Assembly: GCA_027077805.1 (NCBI GenBank) | Contig: JALWTS010000031.1 | Location: forward strand, 1 to 64,000 | Source of the DNA: Gammaproteobacteria bacterium | Lineage (GTDB): Bacteria > Pseudomonadota > Gammaproteobacteria > JABHGC01 | Length of the DNA stretch: 64,000 bases | Direction of reading: 5' to 3' | Part shown: one piece after another, positions 26,718 to 34,513 of the stretch | Layout of the letters: each line of letters starts with the position of its first letter | Numbering within the stretch: position 1 is the first letter of the stretch | Made by a program: the position numbers and the translations under genes | The notes under the pieces: generated by a model | Database searches by the model: none | Told to the model about the DNA's origin: nothing | What the model saw: the letters and a program-made list of their open reading frames with translations, nothing else

Positions 26718-26812
26718 AAGACAATCCTATTTGTAATTTATTGTTAGGGAATACATTTATCAAATATCCCTAAGCTATCTCATTGACTATTGACTAAAGT
26801 TAATAAAACTCA

Positions 26813-26861
26813 CTCTATACCCAAGCATAACAAACCATAGTATGGGGTATGAAGTATAGAG
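26813..26861 (-). promoter_or_regulatory. Stem-loop downstream of dsrC
   Basis: CTCTATAC (26813-26820) pairs with GTATAGAG (26854-26861). Inside the loop lies a second palindrome, CCATAGTATGG (26835-26845), and an alternative ATACCC/GGGTAT pairing. It starts 15 bp after the dsrC stop and has no T-run. It could protect a dsrC-ending mRNA; DsrC is usually needed in excess over the membrane subunits. Confidence 0.5.
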
Positions 26862-26875
26862 CGAGGTTCTAATAC

Positions 26876-29609: not shown

Positions 29610-29642
29610 TCTATTCTCCTAATTGTTTTATGAAAAACTGTC

Positions 29643-29681
29643 AAAAAAAAGGTTTCCTTATCCTTTATAAATAAGGAAACC
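29643..29681 (-). terminator. Intrinsic terminator-like hairpin between dsrA and dsrB
   Basis: On the minus strand GGTTTCCTTAT (29681-29671) pairs perfectly with ATAAGGAAACC (29661-29651) around a 9-base loop, and eight T (29650-29643) follow directly. This is a textbook rho-independent shape, 13 bp after the dsrA stop and about 33 bp before the dsrB start. Confidence 0.8.
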
Positions 29682-29694
29682 CTTTCATCATCCG

Positions 29695-30945
29695 TTAACC
29701 TGCTGCTTTTTCTGCTTGATTATCAAACCATTCTTTGGCAGCATCTTCAAATCCATCCATACGAACATAAGAACACTGACGTGGACTGCCAACCATATTC
29801 GGATCAACATCAACACCAATCCCTTCTAAGAAATTGACTAAACCAATACGCTCAATCATTTCACCTGTGCGTTCATGTTCTAGTGCATTTTCCGCAAAAA
29901 AGTCAATCACTTCTTCCGCAAGTTCGACTAATTTGTCATCATCTTCTTCGGTTTCAAGTTTCATAAATGGAATCACTACCGTTCCCATTAAATCACCAAT
30001 TTTTAGGGTACGTTTACCACCGATTAAAATGCTAATACCTTTATCATCACCAGGTGATAATGCTTTCGTCATTACATTTAAACAATGCATGCAACGAACA
30101 CAGTTACGATTATCGACATTTAAAGTATCATCATCATTAAGTGATAACGCATTCGTTGGGCAACGAGTAATGACGTTATCAACCACATATTGACGACCTT
30201 TCGCACTCACAAATGCCTTAACTTCGTCTTGATTAACTTTCATATCATCACGCCAAGTCCCAATAACCGCAAAATCAGCCCGTTCAATGGCATTCATACA
30301 ATCATTAGGACAACCTGACACTTTAAATTTAAATTTATAAGGTAAGGCAGGACGGTGAACATCATCCGTAAAATTATTGACTAATAAACGTTGAATTTTA
30401 TGCTCATTAGTACAAGATTGCTCACAACGAGCAGCACCAACACAAGACATAGCAGTACGAACACAAGGACCCGCCCCCCCCAAATCAAAACCATAATCAT
30501 TGATTTCGTCAAAAAAGTGTTGGGTATTCTCTGTATTCGCACCAATAAACATGATATTACCCGTTTGACCATGAAAGGTAACAAGACCTGAGCCGTATTT
30601 TTCCCAGCTATCTGCCATTTGTCTTAAAATATCAGAGGTATAATAATTACCTGCGGGAGGTTGGACTCTTAAAGTATGGAACTCTTTGGATTTAGGAAAT
30701 GCTTTTCCGACTTCTGAAAAGCGAGGAATAATACCACCGCCATAACCGTAAACACTCACGGTGCCACCTTTCCAATACCCTTTACGGGTTTCATAAGAAT
30801 GCTCTAATTGACCGAGTAAATCATTGCTCACTTCGTTAATACGTTGTTCTGGATGTTGATCTCTTAGACGTTTAAAGCCAGAAATAAAACTGGGCCAAGG
30901 GCCATTTTCCAGTTCGTCTAGCATGGGGGTATTATGCTTTTGCAT
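29695..30945 (-). CDS. dsrA: Reverse dissimilatory sulfite reductase, alpha subunit
   Basis: This 416-residue subunit has siroheme-[4Fe-4S] cysteines in SCVGAARCEQSC (C-x5-C) and SGCPNDC (C-x3-C), and an inserted ferredoxin domain (RCPTNALS, CVRCMHCL). It is the first gene of the dsr operon, with TAGGAG upstream of the ATG at 30945. A run of eight G in the coding strand (30481-30474) encodes DLGGAGP. It works as a heterotetramer with DsrB in the cytoplasm. Confidence 0.97.
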   Translation of the reverse strand: MQKHNTPMLDELENGPWPSFISGFKRLRDQHPEQRINEVSNDLLGQLEHSYETRKGYWKGGTVSVYGYGGGIIPRFSEVGKAFPKSKEFHTLRVQPPAGNYYTSDILRQMADSWEKYGSGLVTFHGQTGNIMFIGANTENTQHFFDEINDYGFDLGGAGPCVRTAMSCVGAARCEQSCTNEHKIQRLLVNNFTDDVHRPALPYKFKFKVSGCPNDCMNAIERADFAVIGTWRDDMKVNQDEVKAFVSAKGRQYVVDNVITRCPTNALSLNDDDTLNVDNRNCVRCMHCLNVMTKALSPGDDKGISILIGGKRTLKIGDLMGTVVIPFMKLETEEDDDKLVELAEEVIDFFAENALEHERTGEMIERIGLVNFLEGIGVDVDPNMVGSPRQCSYVRMDGFEDAAKEWFDNQAEKAAG

Positions 30946-31140
30946 CAGTTAATTCTCCTATTATTTAATAATATGCCAAGTTTTTCATTTAAAACTCTTC
31001 ACAAAGTCTAGTCCAATATTAACCAAAGTAAAACTTCCTAAAGAGGGGGTTTATCTATCCCTTTAGCAATATTTTTTAGTTAAATTAACACCACAAACAT
31101 TAAAACTAAGTAAAAATCTAATTATTCCTAGCGATTTTGC

Positions 31141-31228: not shown

Positions 31229-32104
31229 ATGAAAAATAGCTTGTTTCTACTAAAAAATCAAGAAAAATATTTACGATGGCGTCAACAAAAACTACAAAAC
31301 TATCCTCATACGATTGAAAATCTTATGGTAGAAATTCAACAGCCAGAACGCTTAACGACTGAAGAATACCAAACTATTATTCAGTATTGTCAACAAACGA
31401 ATATGGCCGTTTATGACTGTTCTACGACAGAATTTACTAAAAATACTTTAAAACATCTTGCCCAACAATTGGGTTTAAATGCGATAAATCAAAACTTATG
31501 TGCCGATGAAGATGCGATTAGCTCATTAAAAGTACAATCACAAGGTCAAGGTCGGCATGCACTTTATATTCCCTATAGCAATAAACCCCTGAGTTGGCAT
31601 ACTGACGGTTATTATAATACGAAAGAACAAACGATTTATTCATGGATATTACACTGTGTGCGACCTGCTGAAATCGGTGGTGATAATACCTTGCTGGATT
31701 ATGAGAGGGTATATATTGCTTTGCGTGATGAAAACCCAAACTGGATTCCTATACTAATGCGTAACAATGCCATGACAATTCCTGCGAATATTGAAAATGG
31801 GATAGAAATCCGACCTGCCCAAACTGGCCCTGTCTTTTCAATTCATCCACAAACAGGTCGGCTACACATGCGTTACAGTGCAAGACAGCGTCATATTATT
31901 TGGCATCCTGATGCCAAAGATGCGGTTGATTTCATCACTGACTTGTTATCGCAACCTTTGAGCTATAAATGGCAATATAAGCTGAAAGCAGGTCAAGGTA
32001 TTATTAGTAATAATGTCTTACATAATCGTCAAGGATTTAAAGGTGAACAGCGTTTACTGTATCGTGCAAGATACTATCAACCCATTCAAACAATGGGTAT
32101 TTAA
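31229..32104 (+). CDS. TauD/TfdA-family Fe(II)/2-oxoglutarate-dependent oxygenase
   Basis: This 291-residue protein has the iron triad: His124 and Asp126 in LSWHTDGYYN, and His265 in SNNVLHNRQGF, followed by arginines (RLLYRAR) for 2-oxoglutarate. Family members hydroxylate small molecules, including sulfonates and sulfate esters (TauD, AtsK) and gamma-butyrobetaine. The substrate here is unknown. It is the first gene of a five-gene plus-strand group divergent from dsrA, which suggests a role linked to sulfur metabolism. Confidence 0.88.
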   Translation: MKNSLFLLKNQEKYLRWRQQKLQNYPHTIENLMVEIQQPERLTTEEYQTIIQYCQQTNMAVYDCSTTEFTKNTLKHLAQQLGLNAINQNLCADEDAISSLKVQSQGQGRHALYIPYSNKPLSWHTDGYYNTKEQTIYSWILHCVRPAEIGGDNTLLDYERVYIALRDENPNWIPILMRNNAMTIPANIENGIEIRPAQTGPVFSIHPQTGRLHMRYSARQRHIIWHPDAKDAVDFITDLLSQPLSYKWQYKLKAGQGIISNNVLHNRQGFKGEQRLLYRARYYQPIQTMGI

Positions 32105-32121
32105 ATTTTAAGGATTATTTT

Positions 32122-32310
32122 ATGTTATGCTTAAGTGAAATTTTATTAAAAAATCATGAACTTAGTTCATTTGAAGCACTAATCCCTGTCATCAAACAAG
32201 CAGCAAATGAGGGTGCCATTCATTTCAGTATGGATGTCAAACCCCCTTTTAATGATACCCCTGAAAATTGGGAAGATAGATTAGAAGCTGCTTTTTACGG
32301 GAAGTTATAA
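32122..32310 (+). CDS. Small acidic protein, 62 aa, unknown function
   Basis: I do not recognise a named domain. The sequence (EILLKNHELSSFEALIPVIK, then FSMDVKPPFNDTPENWEDRL) looks like a compact alpha/beta fold with a conserved-looking Pro/Trp-rich core. It lies 17 bp after the dioxygenase gene with an AAGGA before the ATG, and 3 bp before the Cas6-like gene, so it is translated as part of this operon. Coding potential is supported by context and tight spacing. Confidence 0.7.
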   Translation: MLCLSEILLKNHELSSFEALIPVIKQAANEGAIHFSMDVKPPFNDTPENWEDRLEAAFYGKL

Positions 32311-32313
32311 GCA

Positions 32314-33015
32314 ATGTTTTGGCAAGAAACTACCGCACAAACAACGACAACTATTGATGATAGCATTGTTGATCTTAGTTTTTCCATTCGTGGTAAAACC
32401 TTGAAAATCGACCATAGTTATGATCTCTATCAAGCATTATCTCAGGCATTACCAATACTTAATGAAACGAATGATATAGGGATTCATCCTATTATTACGG
32501 CAACGTCAGGCAATGGCTGGTATCAACCTAATAATCCAGAAACAGAAATATTATATCTTTCCAAACGAAGCAAATTGATATTGCGACTACCTAAAGCAAT
32601 GATAGAAAGAGTGCAAAATTTAACCAACCAAACCTTAGATATTGCCGGGTCTATTCTCAAAGTTGGTCAAGCTAAAACTAAAACCTTAATTGCGACGGAT
32701 ACCTTATTTTCTCGTCATGTTGTTTATTCTACAACCAGCGAAATCATTGATGAACAAGATTTTTTAAACCAGATTTATCAAACCATTCAAACCCTAGATA
32801 TCCAACCCAAAAAATTATTATGTGGACGTTCCCAAACAATCAAACATCCACAACACACCTTATTTACTTGCAGTGTCATGATTGCAGATTTAAGCAAACA
32901 AGAATCAATTACCTTGCAACAACATGGCATTGGTCAGTATCAACGATTTGGCTGTGGTTTATGGATTCCACATAAAGGCATTACTCCTGTTGGAGAAGAA
33001 ACAAAAATGGATTAA
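32314..33015 (+). CDS. Stand-alone Cas6/Cmx6-like RAMP protein
   Basis: This 233-residue protein resembles the Cas6 variant of MYXAN-type CRISPR systems (Cmx6). It has an N-terminal strand and helix with a conserved His (VDLSFSIRGKTLKIDHSYDL, His34), GIHPI, a basic middle (KRSKLILRLP) and the C-terminal glycine-rich loop GIGQYQRFGCGLWIPHKG that is typical of RAMP RNA-binding proteins. Cas6 cuts CRISPR precursor RNA. No cas genes, repeats or spacers occur in this window, so a different RNA or a non-RNA role is possible. The assignment rests on motif recognition without a search. Confidence 0.68.
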   Translation: MFWQETTAQTTTTIDDSIVDLSFSIRGKTLKIDHSYDLYQALSQALPILNETNDIGIHPIITATSGNGWYQPNNPETEILYLSKRSKLILRLPKAMIERVQNLTNQTLDIAGSILKVGQAKTKTLIATDTLFSRHVVYSTTSEIIDEQDFLNQIYQTIQTLDIQPKKLLCGRSQTIKHPQHTLFTCSVMIADLSKQESITLQQHGIGQYQRFGCGLWIPHKGITPVGEETKMD

Positions 33016-33136
33016 ATATTCACAAATATAGACCTAGACCAATGAGGTTTTTTTGATTAATATAAGCATATCTATGAATCAATCAATCAATCTAATCGAT
33101 CAATCTTAAATTACAAAATAAAAAGGAGTTAAAACA

Positions 33137-33475
33137 ATGGCAATGCTTGTTGATGGTAAAGAAATTGAAACCACTGAAACTGGTTTTTTAGTCAATGCAG
33201 ACGACTGGAATGAAGCCGTCGCTGAAGTCATTGCAAAAGAAGAAAATATTGAGTTGACTGAAAAACACTGGGATGTTATCAATTATTTGCGTACCGAATT
33301 TTTTGATAATCGTGGAAATCAACCTAATACTCGTAGTATGGTCAAAGATATGGGCAAAAAGTGGGGCGAAAAAATTGGTTCTAAAGACCTTTTTGCCCTA
33401 TTTCCAGGCAATCCTAGTAAACAGGCCGGTCGCATTGCTGGCTTACCTGAAAGCCGACGTAAAGGTGGTTATTAA
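33137..33475 (+). CDS. Cysteine-less DsrC-family protein (RspA type)
   Basis: This 112-residue paralogue of DsrC shares the start (MLVDGKEIETTETGFLVNADDW), ELTEKHWDVINYLR and the KQAGRIAGLP segment. The position of Cys98 is Gly, and the C-terminus ends RRKGGY without the penultimate Cys. It therefore cannot carry sulfur like DsrC or TusE, and matches the group named RspA (regulatory sulfur-related). AAGGAG lies ahead of the ATG. It is expressed divergently from dsr and could regulate or modulate the pathway. Confidence 0.9.
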   Translation: MAMLVDGKEIETTETGFLVNADDWNEAVAEVIAKEENIELTEKHWDVINYLRTEFFDNRGNQPNTRSMVKDMGKKWGEKIGSKDLFALFPGNPSKQAGRIAGLPESRRKGGY

Positions 33476-33555
33476 AAATCGCACTATTTTTGATTGTATC
33501 TTCAAATTGATGATATAATAAGACGTATTGTTAAATATAAAAAAAAGGTAGCACA

Positions 33556-33765
33556 ATGAGTGAGAAACAGGAATTAATTAAACGAATGCTAGAAATGCAA
33601 AAAGAATTTATTGCGAACGAACATGCCGGTAAAATCAGCCCTAAAGAATATTTTACTGACTTTCCTAGCATTGATGGCATGAGCACTTACCGTTCTGAAT
33701 ATGCGGATATTGCCAATCAAGTTGTCAATATGGCACATGCAGAAAAAGGCTCAATTCGAGACTAA
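33556..33765 (+). CDS. Small protein, 69 aa, unknown function
   Basis: I do not recognise this family. It is helical and charged (ELIKRMLEMQKEFIANEHAG, ISPKEYFTDF, YADIANQVVNMAHAEKG) with no cysteine or membrane segment. AAAGGT precedes the ATG. It lies 80 bp after the RspA-type gene and is the last in the group divergent from dsr. A partner or regulatory role in sulfur oxidation is inferred only from position. Confidence 0.7.
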   Translation: MSEKQELIKRMLEMQKEFIANEHAGKISPKEYFTDFPSIDGMSTYRSEYADIANQVVNMAHAEKGSIRD

Positions 33766-33838: not shown

Positions 33839-34513
33839 TCAGATTTCAGTCCACATTCTCACCAAATTCACATAAGCTATATGCAGATTTTTACTTTCAT
33901 CTTCTTCGGGAATAATCTCAGCTAGACGTTCATAAGTCGAACGCAATTGATATAGAATTTCCCGTTGTGCGGGTGCTTTCACCATGCTTTGTACCCATGT
34001 TACCGCCACTAAGCGCATTCCATTGCTCACTTCTTTCACTCTATGTAAGCTCGAAGATGGATACGCAATGGCATCCCCTGCTTGCAATTTTACTAATTTA
34101 TGACCAAAACTGGTTTGAATCTCTAATTCGCCCCCCTCATAATCCTCAGGTGAATTAAGAAATATGGTTGTAGAAACATCACTACGATAACGACTTTTCT
34201 CTGTTCCCATCACAGGATCATCCACATGCCAACCATAGGACATACCCGCAGTATAACGAGCATAAAACGGCTGTGCGACTCGATAAGGCAATACGGCTTG
34301 TTGATAAATAGGATGTTTCAGCAAAGCTCCCATCACCAACTGATTCAGTGCTTGTAACAACTGCGGTTCCATAGACACTTCTTGATTATTTTTTACCAAT
34401 GCCGCTACTTTACCTGCCGATAGCTTACCATCAACAAATTTTGCTTGCACTAAAGTTTGTTGAATACTCGATAATTGCGATGAGTTTAAAACTTTAGGGA
34501 TTTGAATTAACAT
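33839..34513 (-). CDS. Fe(II)/2-oxoglutarate-dependent PKHD-type hydroxylase (PiuC/YbiX-like)
   Basis: This 224-residue double-stranded beta-helix oxygenase has the iron ligands in WHVDDPVMG and SSSLHRV, and the 2-oxoglutarate arginine in GMRLVAVTW. It has the family start (IPKVLNSSQL) and QPFYARYTAGMSYGWH. PiuC homologues are often regulated by iron and sit beside siderophore receptors, but no receptor is present here. Its start overlaps the preceding gene by 20 bp. Confidence 0.92.
   Translation of the reverse strand: MLIQIPKVLNSSQLSSIQQTLVQAKFVDGKLSAGKVAALVKNNQEVSMEPQLLQALNQLVMGALLKHPIYQQAVLPYRVAQPFYARYTAGMSYGWHVDDPVMGTEKSRYRSDVSTTIFLNSPEDYEGGELEIQTSFGHKLVKLQAGDAIAYPSSSLHRVKEVSNGMRLVAVTWVQSMVKAPAQREILYQLRSTYERLAEIIPEEDESKNLHIAYVNLVRMWTEI

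Follow-up and report, generated by a model that had tools for sequence, protein, structure and literature searches.

A Cas6-family protein in a conserved gene module divergent from dsrA in gammaproteobacterial sulfur oxidisers

The question raised by this locus is why a protein of the Cas6 family, whose members normally cut CRISPR RNA, should be encoded back to back with dsrA, the first gene of the reverse-Dsr (rDsr) operon. The rDsr pathway is among the main routes by which sulfur is oxidised in marine sediments, at vents and in symbionts, and little is known of how it is regulated. The window, which is the whole stretch of 64,000 nucleotides analysed here (contig JALWTS010000031.1), carries on the minus strand dsrABEF, with dsrA at 29695-30945 (TIGR02064, 618 bits), dsrC and dsrMKLJOPN, names which follow from protein family and gene order. 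A region of 283 nt separates dsrA from a group of five plus-strand genes, and all five open reading frames listed in the preliminary description are present at the positions and on the strand it gave, divergent from dsrA and with a promoter region in common, while Pfam and NCBIfam back its naming of TauD, Cas6 and DsrC. The group encodes a TauD-type Fe(II)/2-oxoglutarate oxygenase (31229-32104; PF02668, 4e-22, ligands conserved), a small acidic protein, p62 (32122-32310), the Cas6 protein (32314-33015), a cysteine-less DsrC paralogue, DsrC2 (33137-33475; PF04358, 2.6e-35), and a further small protein, p69 (33556-33765), with gaps of 17, 3, 121 and 80 nt between them. Both small proteins recur in Cas6 loci and have characteristic motifs (DVKPPFxDTPxxWEDxLEAAF in p62, EMQKKFxxYExxxGV in p69), and neither has convincing relatives in Pfam or PDB. 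Convergent to the module, and following it, is a gene for a second oxygenase, a PKHD-type Fe(II) dioxygenase of the YbiX family (33839-34513, minus strand); a YbiX-like match was found in 61 of 96 Cas6 loci, and the convergent position after the module recurs in many relatives.

The assignment of the third protein proved to be firmer than first thought. It scores 199.9 bits against PF09559 (E-value 5e-59; cut-off 26.7 bits) and 131.3 bits against the NCBIfam model TIGR02807, cas6_cmx6 (cut-off 98.85). As the latter score is also above its cut-off, the protein belongs to the Cas6 family proper, and the initial label “Cas6-like” was an understatement. An AF2 model (pLDDT 85.7) has the RAMP fold of Cas6: the best Foldseek match is the Cas6 of a type I-B CAST (8fcu_B/8fcj_B, E 3e-18), and all 44 matches at E<1e-3 are Cas6, Cse3 or Cascade chains.

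The association with dsrA is not a peculiarity of one genome. The Cas6 protein was found in 17 of 55 relatives searched, most of which show the series TauD-p62-Cas6-DsrC2-p69, whole or largely so, divergent from dsrA. In the main sample, an evenly drawn set of 370 gammaproteobacterial genomes searched with profiles for both proteins, Cas6 matches occur in 127 genomes, dsrA in 124 and both in 121. Cas6 is thus present in 121 of the 124 genomes with dsrA compared to 6 of the 246 without (Fisher p 9e-86, a value to be read with the knowledge that the genomes are not independent of each other, though they represent well over 100 families). The few exceptions were inspected. Contig edges lie at dsrA or p62 in the three genomes with dsrA only, and in five of the six genomes with Cas6 only, the module genes lie on short contigs or next to the end of a contig; the remaining one (G359) has a real CRISPR locus with cas3, and its Cas6 score is clearly lower. 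Where both genes are on the same contig, 89 of 92 pairs are 602-4463 bp apart, and each of these 89 is divergent. As the same arrangement is found in dozens of gammaproteobacterial families, that of the window is not due to chance. The preliminary description had suggested a neighbourhood search for recurrence beside dsrA, which turned out strongly positive in the 370 genomes, and had named absence from rDsr genomes, or presence mostly in organisms lacking dsr, as grounds for giving up the idea; within Gammaproteobacteria the neighbours show neither pattern. The existence and conservation of the module are well established, and we regard it as accessory to the gammaproteobacterial rDsr (sulfur oxidation) pathway, with Cas6 as its core.

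Genes may also travel with dsr as neutral hitch-hikers, and in a few lineages Cas6 is indeed not near dsrA, so that adjacency is not obligatory: G099, G205, G289 and G356, small genomes that all belong to one family, have it at a long distance from dsrA or on a different contig. Yet the gene has been retained in that case despite having moved away, and the arrangement beside dsrA is kept even in genomes of only about 1.0-1.1 Mb (G130, G309, G040 and G257). Some residues are, furthermore, invariant in 117 of 117 sequences throughout the class. We consider passive co-transfer to be very improbable.

Could the protein be an ordinary Cas6 that serves a CRISPR array in another part of the genome? 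Cas1 is indeed encoded in the genome from which the window comes, on other contigs, and automatic searches give no hint of a difference: PF09559, TIGR02807 and the PADLOC Cas6 models, PDLC01346 among them, match the dsr-linked proteins strongly, with PF09559 scoring them as well as CRISPR members. These equal scores explain why automatic annotation labels the dsr-linked proteins as CRISPR. Against this stand the near one-to-one relation to dsrA, the loss of the CRISPR-type histidine (see below) and the finding that 30 of 60 Cas6-bearing genomes lack Cas1, from which it follows that the gene can do without CRISPR. As a general explanation an ordinary CRISPR function is refuted by genomes that consist of a single contig and are free of Cas1 (e.g. 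G020, G035, G045, G075, G077, G120 and G278), and we see next to no likelihood of it at this locus. The neighbours of the dsr-linked gene are dsr and module genes; judged from these neighbours and from Cas1, a link to cas genes is absent, and its independence from CRISPR is well established. No viral carriage of the module was found in IMG/VR or phage records.

A comparison of 117 dsr-linked Cas6 proteins with CRISPR-linked Cmx6 proteins (from cyanobacterial plasmids, the genome G359 and 8fcj) revealed both retained and rebuilt features. H34, R91 and the Gly-rich C-terminal loop are common to the two groups, with G205, G207, G213 and G215 of the loop occurring in at least 114 of the 117 dsr-linked proteins and in all CRISPR members. 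Column 50, in contrast, has a histidine in 7 of 9 CRISPR Cmx6 proteins and in only one of the 117. In PfuCas6 the triad is Tyr31-His46-Lys52 (PMC3652601), and comparison of the motif LHEL with the His46 region suggests that the histidine of column 50 is the catalytic one. The dsr lineage has residues of its own: H58 (110 of 117), H61 (99), R85 (117), H220 (113), K221 (115) and an NGWxR insert. The window copy has Ile at position 61 and Gln at 71, and H58 is absent from the three sequences examined of the family in which Cas6 has left dsrA. We considered H58 as the ancestral catalytic histidine and rejected this, as only 2 of 10 CRISPR Cmx6 proteins carry it. In a FastTree tree all CRISPR members fall on one side of a single branch (support 0.915). 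With the histidine lost and near-invariant residues of their own, the dsr-linked proteins look like one neofunctionalised lineage, seemingly the result of a single recruitment from CRISPR.

With the CRISPR-type histidine lost, it may be that the protein binds RNA but does not cut it, or that it does not use RNA at all. It could have ceased to be a nuclease and serve as a RAMP-fold RNA-binding regulator, or as a scaffold on which p62, the cysteine-less DsrC and DsrAB assemble. This is a tentative alternative, favoured by the absence of that histidine in 116 of 117 proteins, by the lineage-specific invariant patch (NGWxR insert, R85, H220-K221), which suggests a new surface, and by its companions, which are small and conserved or, in one case, a TPR-like solenoid, as is typical of assemblies. 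The retention of the Gly-rich loop, H34 and R91, the new histidines at 58 and 61, and the fact that a Cas6 without the histidine can still cut (PMC3652601) speak for a nuclease instead.

Among the partners, p62 is the closest neighbour of Cas6. It was found in 86 of 96 Cas6 loci, compared to 79 for DsrC2, 78 for TauD and 44 for p69, and it stays beside Cas6 in 5 loci without dsr nearby. In loci of Marithrix, Parabeggiatoa and Thioploca (L054, L060, L083 and L100) the module lies away from dsr and the two genes are still together, which points to a joint function. About 40 loci, the window not among them, have a strongly conserved helical protein of ~235 aa encoded between p62 and Cas6 (e.g. 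L103:9141-9857). It is modelled, with pLDDT 93, as a TPR-like solenoid made up of helices only, and the model has no fold match below 1e-3. An identification as Cse2/Cas11 was dismissed for lack of such a match and because Pfam gave a hit, short of the cut-off (E 0.016), for only 1 of 20 members. At L164:10195-11058 and in 13 loci (e.g. L051, L056, L065 and L111) a two-domain rhodanese of the mercaptopyruvate sulfurtransferase type directly follows the module.

The oxygenase keeps its Fe(II)/2-oxoglutarate ligands: the HxD of WHTDGYYN, the distal histidine of LHxR and the arginine of RAR are conserved in more than 95% of 76 sequences, which gives it the HxD...H metal ligands and the distal arginine of TauD oxygenases. 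The named NCBIfam families that come nearest, trimethyllysine and gamma-butyrobetaine dioxygenases, all score far below cut-off. This gene already has a name, as a TauD-like gene divergent from dsrA is identified, in the part of PMC7596348 that deals with it, as DsrQ of Lenk et al. 2012, with sulfonate breakdown as its proposed role. Of the “unnamed accessory system” for sulfur oxidation that had been put forward for the window, the recurrent, dsr-linked module thus stands, while “unnamed” does not apply to its first gene. The window DsrC2 belongs to the DsrC sequence family and contains no cysteine whatsoever; the conserved C-terminal cysteines of DsrC are missing, with a cysteine within the last 15 residues in just 2 of 79 homologues. 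A tail of the type RKGGY replaces the cysteine arm in the window protein and in the listed homologues.

The restriction of Cas6 to Gammaproteobacteria (in the GTDB sense) holds for the genomes sampled: across the phylum it accompanies dsrA in 6 of 6 gammaproteobacterial genomes as opposed to 0 of 33 from other classes. Inspection of eight of the latter showed dsrE, dsrF and dsrC in six, of which four have TauD and p62 and one has p62 alone, in each case without Cas6, while the pair TauD-p62 is divergent from dsrA in these classes also. The more widespread core is therefore TauD-p62, to which Cas6 has been added in Gammaproteobacteria. In three rDsr genomes of another class (L180, L181 and L182) TauD-p62 is followed by siroheme synthase, which belongs to the cofactor pathway of DsrAB. 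Divergent forms with the gene order Cas6-DsrC2-TauD occur in four genomes (G541, G559, G575 and G664), which are possibly betaproteobacterial; the NGW insert is missing from the two of their Cas6 sequences that were aligned over the full length.

If the protein acts on RNA, its target might be expected within the dsr locus. Upstream of dsrA is a conserved -10-like box, CTAGACTT (31004-31011, read on the minus strand), which could be aligned in 57 divergent regions; of 68 regions upstream of dsrA, 28 contain CTAGACT without a mismatch. Further upstream the same alignment shows two near-palindromes, CCCTACCnnGGGGTG and CTATCCCnnnGGGATAG, conserved in relatives and present as a degenerate copy in the window (31037-31066). 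This element was considered as an RNA and set aside: it has no Rfam match, and its layout, with a pair of near-palindromes ahead of a -10 box, makes DNA sites more likely than RNA. The near-palindromes are probably regulator sites of a regulated dsrA promoter. A hairpin in the dsrA leader was likewise rejected as a Cas6 substrate, being strong mainly in the Thiogranum group and weak in the window. Two intergenic hairpins on the minus strand are of wider occurrence, one between dsrA and dsrB (29610-29694, a 14 bp stem, z -4.6 in the window and -1.9 on average across genomes) and one between dsrC and dsrM (26718-26875, 13 bp, z -2.2 and -2.5, respectively). Their stems are retained across rDsr genomes despite very different sequences, with or without Cas6; being present in genomes that lack Cas6, and dissimilar by eye within a genome, they were discarded as Cas6-specific sites, and they are possibly elements of mRNA processing or stability. 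A search of Rfam gave nothing relevant, and none of the dsrA leader, the two hairpins or the Rfam models provided an RNA substrate with a distribution matching that of Cas6. The earlier suggestion of regulation at the RNA level has thus gained a confirmed Cas6 family member while finding no matching RNA substrate and a protein lacking the CRISPR-type histidine; we retain it as a working hypothesis.

The explanation which we favour for the whole, and which we give about an even chance, is that the exapted Cas6, together with p62, assists rDsr by binding or cleaving RNA. A Cas6-family protein would have been recruited from CRISPR, seemingly in one event, with its active site rebuilt, and would still bind and probably cut RNA in concert with p62, the likely target being a dsr transcript or a small RNA that controls the locus. 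Expression of rDsr could in this way be adjusted to sulfur or oxygen status, with the oxygen-using DsrQ and the cysteine-less DsrC as putative sensing or docking parts. Its family makes it likely that the protein acts on RNA, and control of rDsr is our best guess from its position. We count against this explanation that none of the hairpins examined matches Cas6 in distribution, that the CRISPR-type histidine is lost, that some rDsr bacteria of other classes manage without Cas6, and that in the four small genomes named above the gene has left dsrA. A more specific version, to which we lend only guarded credence, has a CRISPR nuclease domesticated once, early in gammaproteobacterial rDsr, with H58 and H61 replacing the CRISPR-type histidine and with specific dsr-linked RNA cut in cooperation with p62; if true, RNA processing would be an integral part of sulfur-oxidation control.

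Alternatively, Cas6, a Tus/DsrC-like protein and an oxygenase could modify or process sulfur-linked tRNA or rRNA at high sulfur flux. Cas6 proteins recognise hairpins, and DsrC2 also matches the TusE model, below its cut-off. DsrEFH are homologues of TusBCD (PMC5728499), and DsrEFH and DsrC are related to the Tus thiolation relay. Given the strict tie to dsrA, and since no recurrent tRNA-modification gene was noticed in the module, we think this improbable.

No report of Cas6 with dsr was found in the open-licence literature, a scope outside which most subscription journals lie. A near-universal partner gene of gammaproteobacterial rDsr has been hidden in databases by its CRISPR label, and sulfur oxidisers will receive false calls of orphan Cas6 or orphan CRISPR. 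The dsr-linked Cas6 seems to have been co-opted by sulfur metabolism and may be an example of exaptation in which a Cas RNase came to serve core energy metabolism; it provides a testable handle on rDsr control.

Several known systems resemble parts of the module. RspA-type DsrC-like proteins, to which we assign the cysteine-less DsrC paralogue, likewise lack the two redox cysteines; DsrC2 differs in being a fixed module member with the RKGGY tail. The window TauD has the gene type and divergent position described for DsrQ in the relevant part of PMC7596348, where Cas6 and CRISPR are not mentioned; here DsrQ is a member of a Cas6 module. SsoCas6 (Sso1437), a natural Cas6 that also lacks the canonical histidine, still cuts RNA (PMC3652601), but it makes crRNA, whereas the dsr-linked protein has no CRISPR context. 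The Cas6/Cmx6 proteins (PF09559, TIGR02807) of type I-MYXAN and I-B CAST systems (8fcj) are of the same sequence family and have the RAMP fold, the Gly-rich loop, H34 and R91 in common with the window protein; unlike these, the dsr-linked protein lacks cas neighbours and the CRISPR-type histidine, conserves NGWxR, H58/H61/R85 and H220-K221, and is tied to dsrA.
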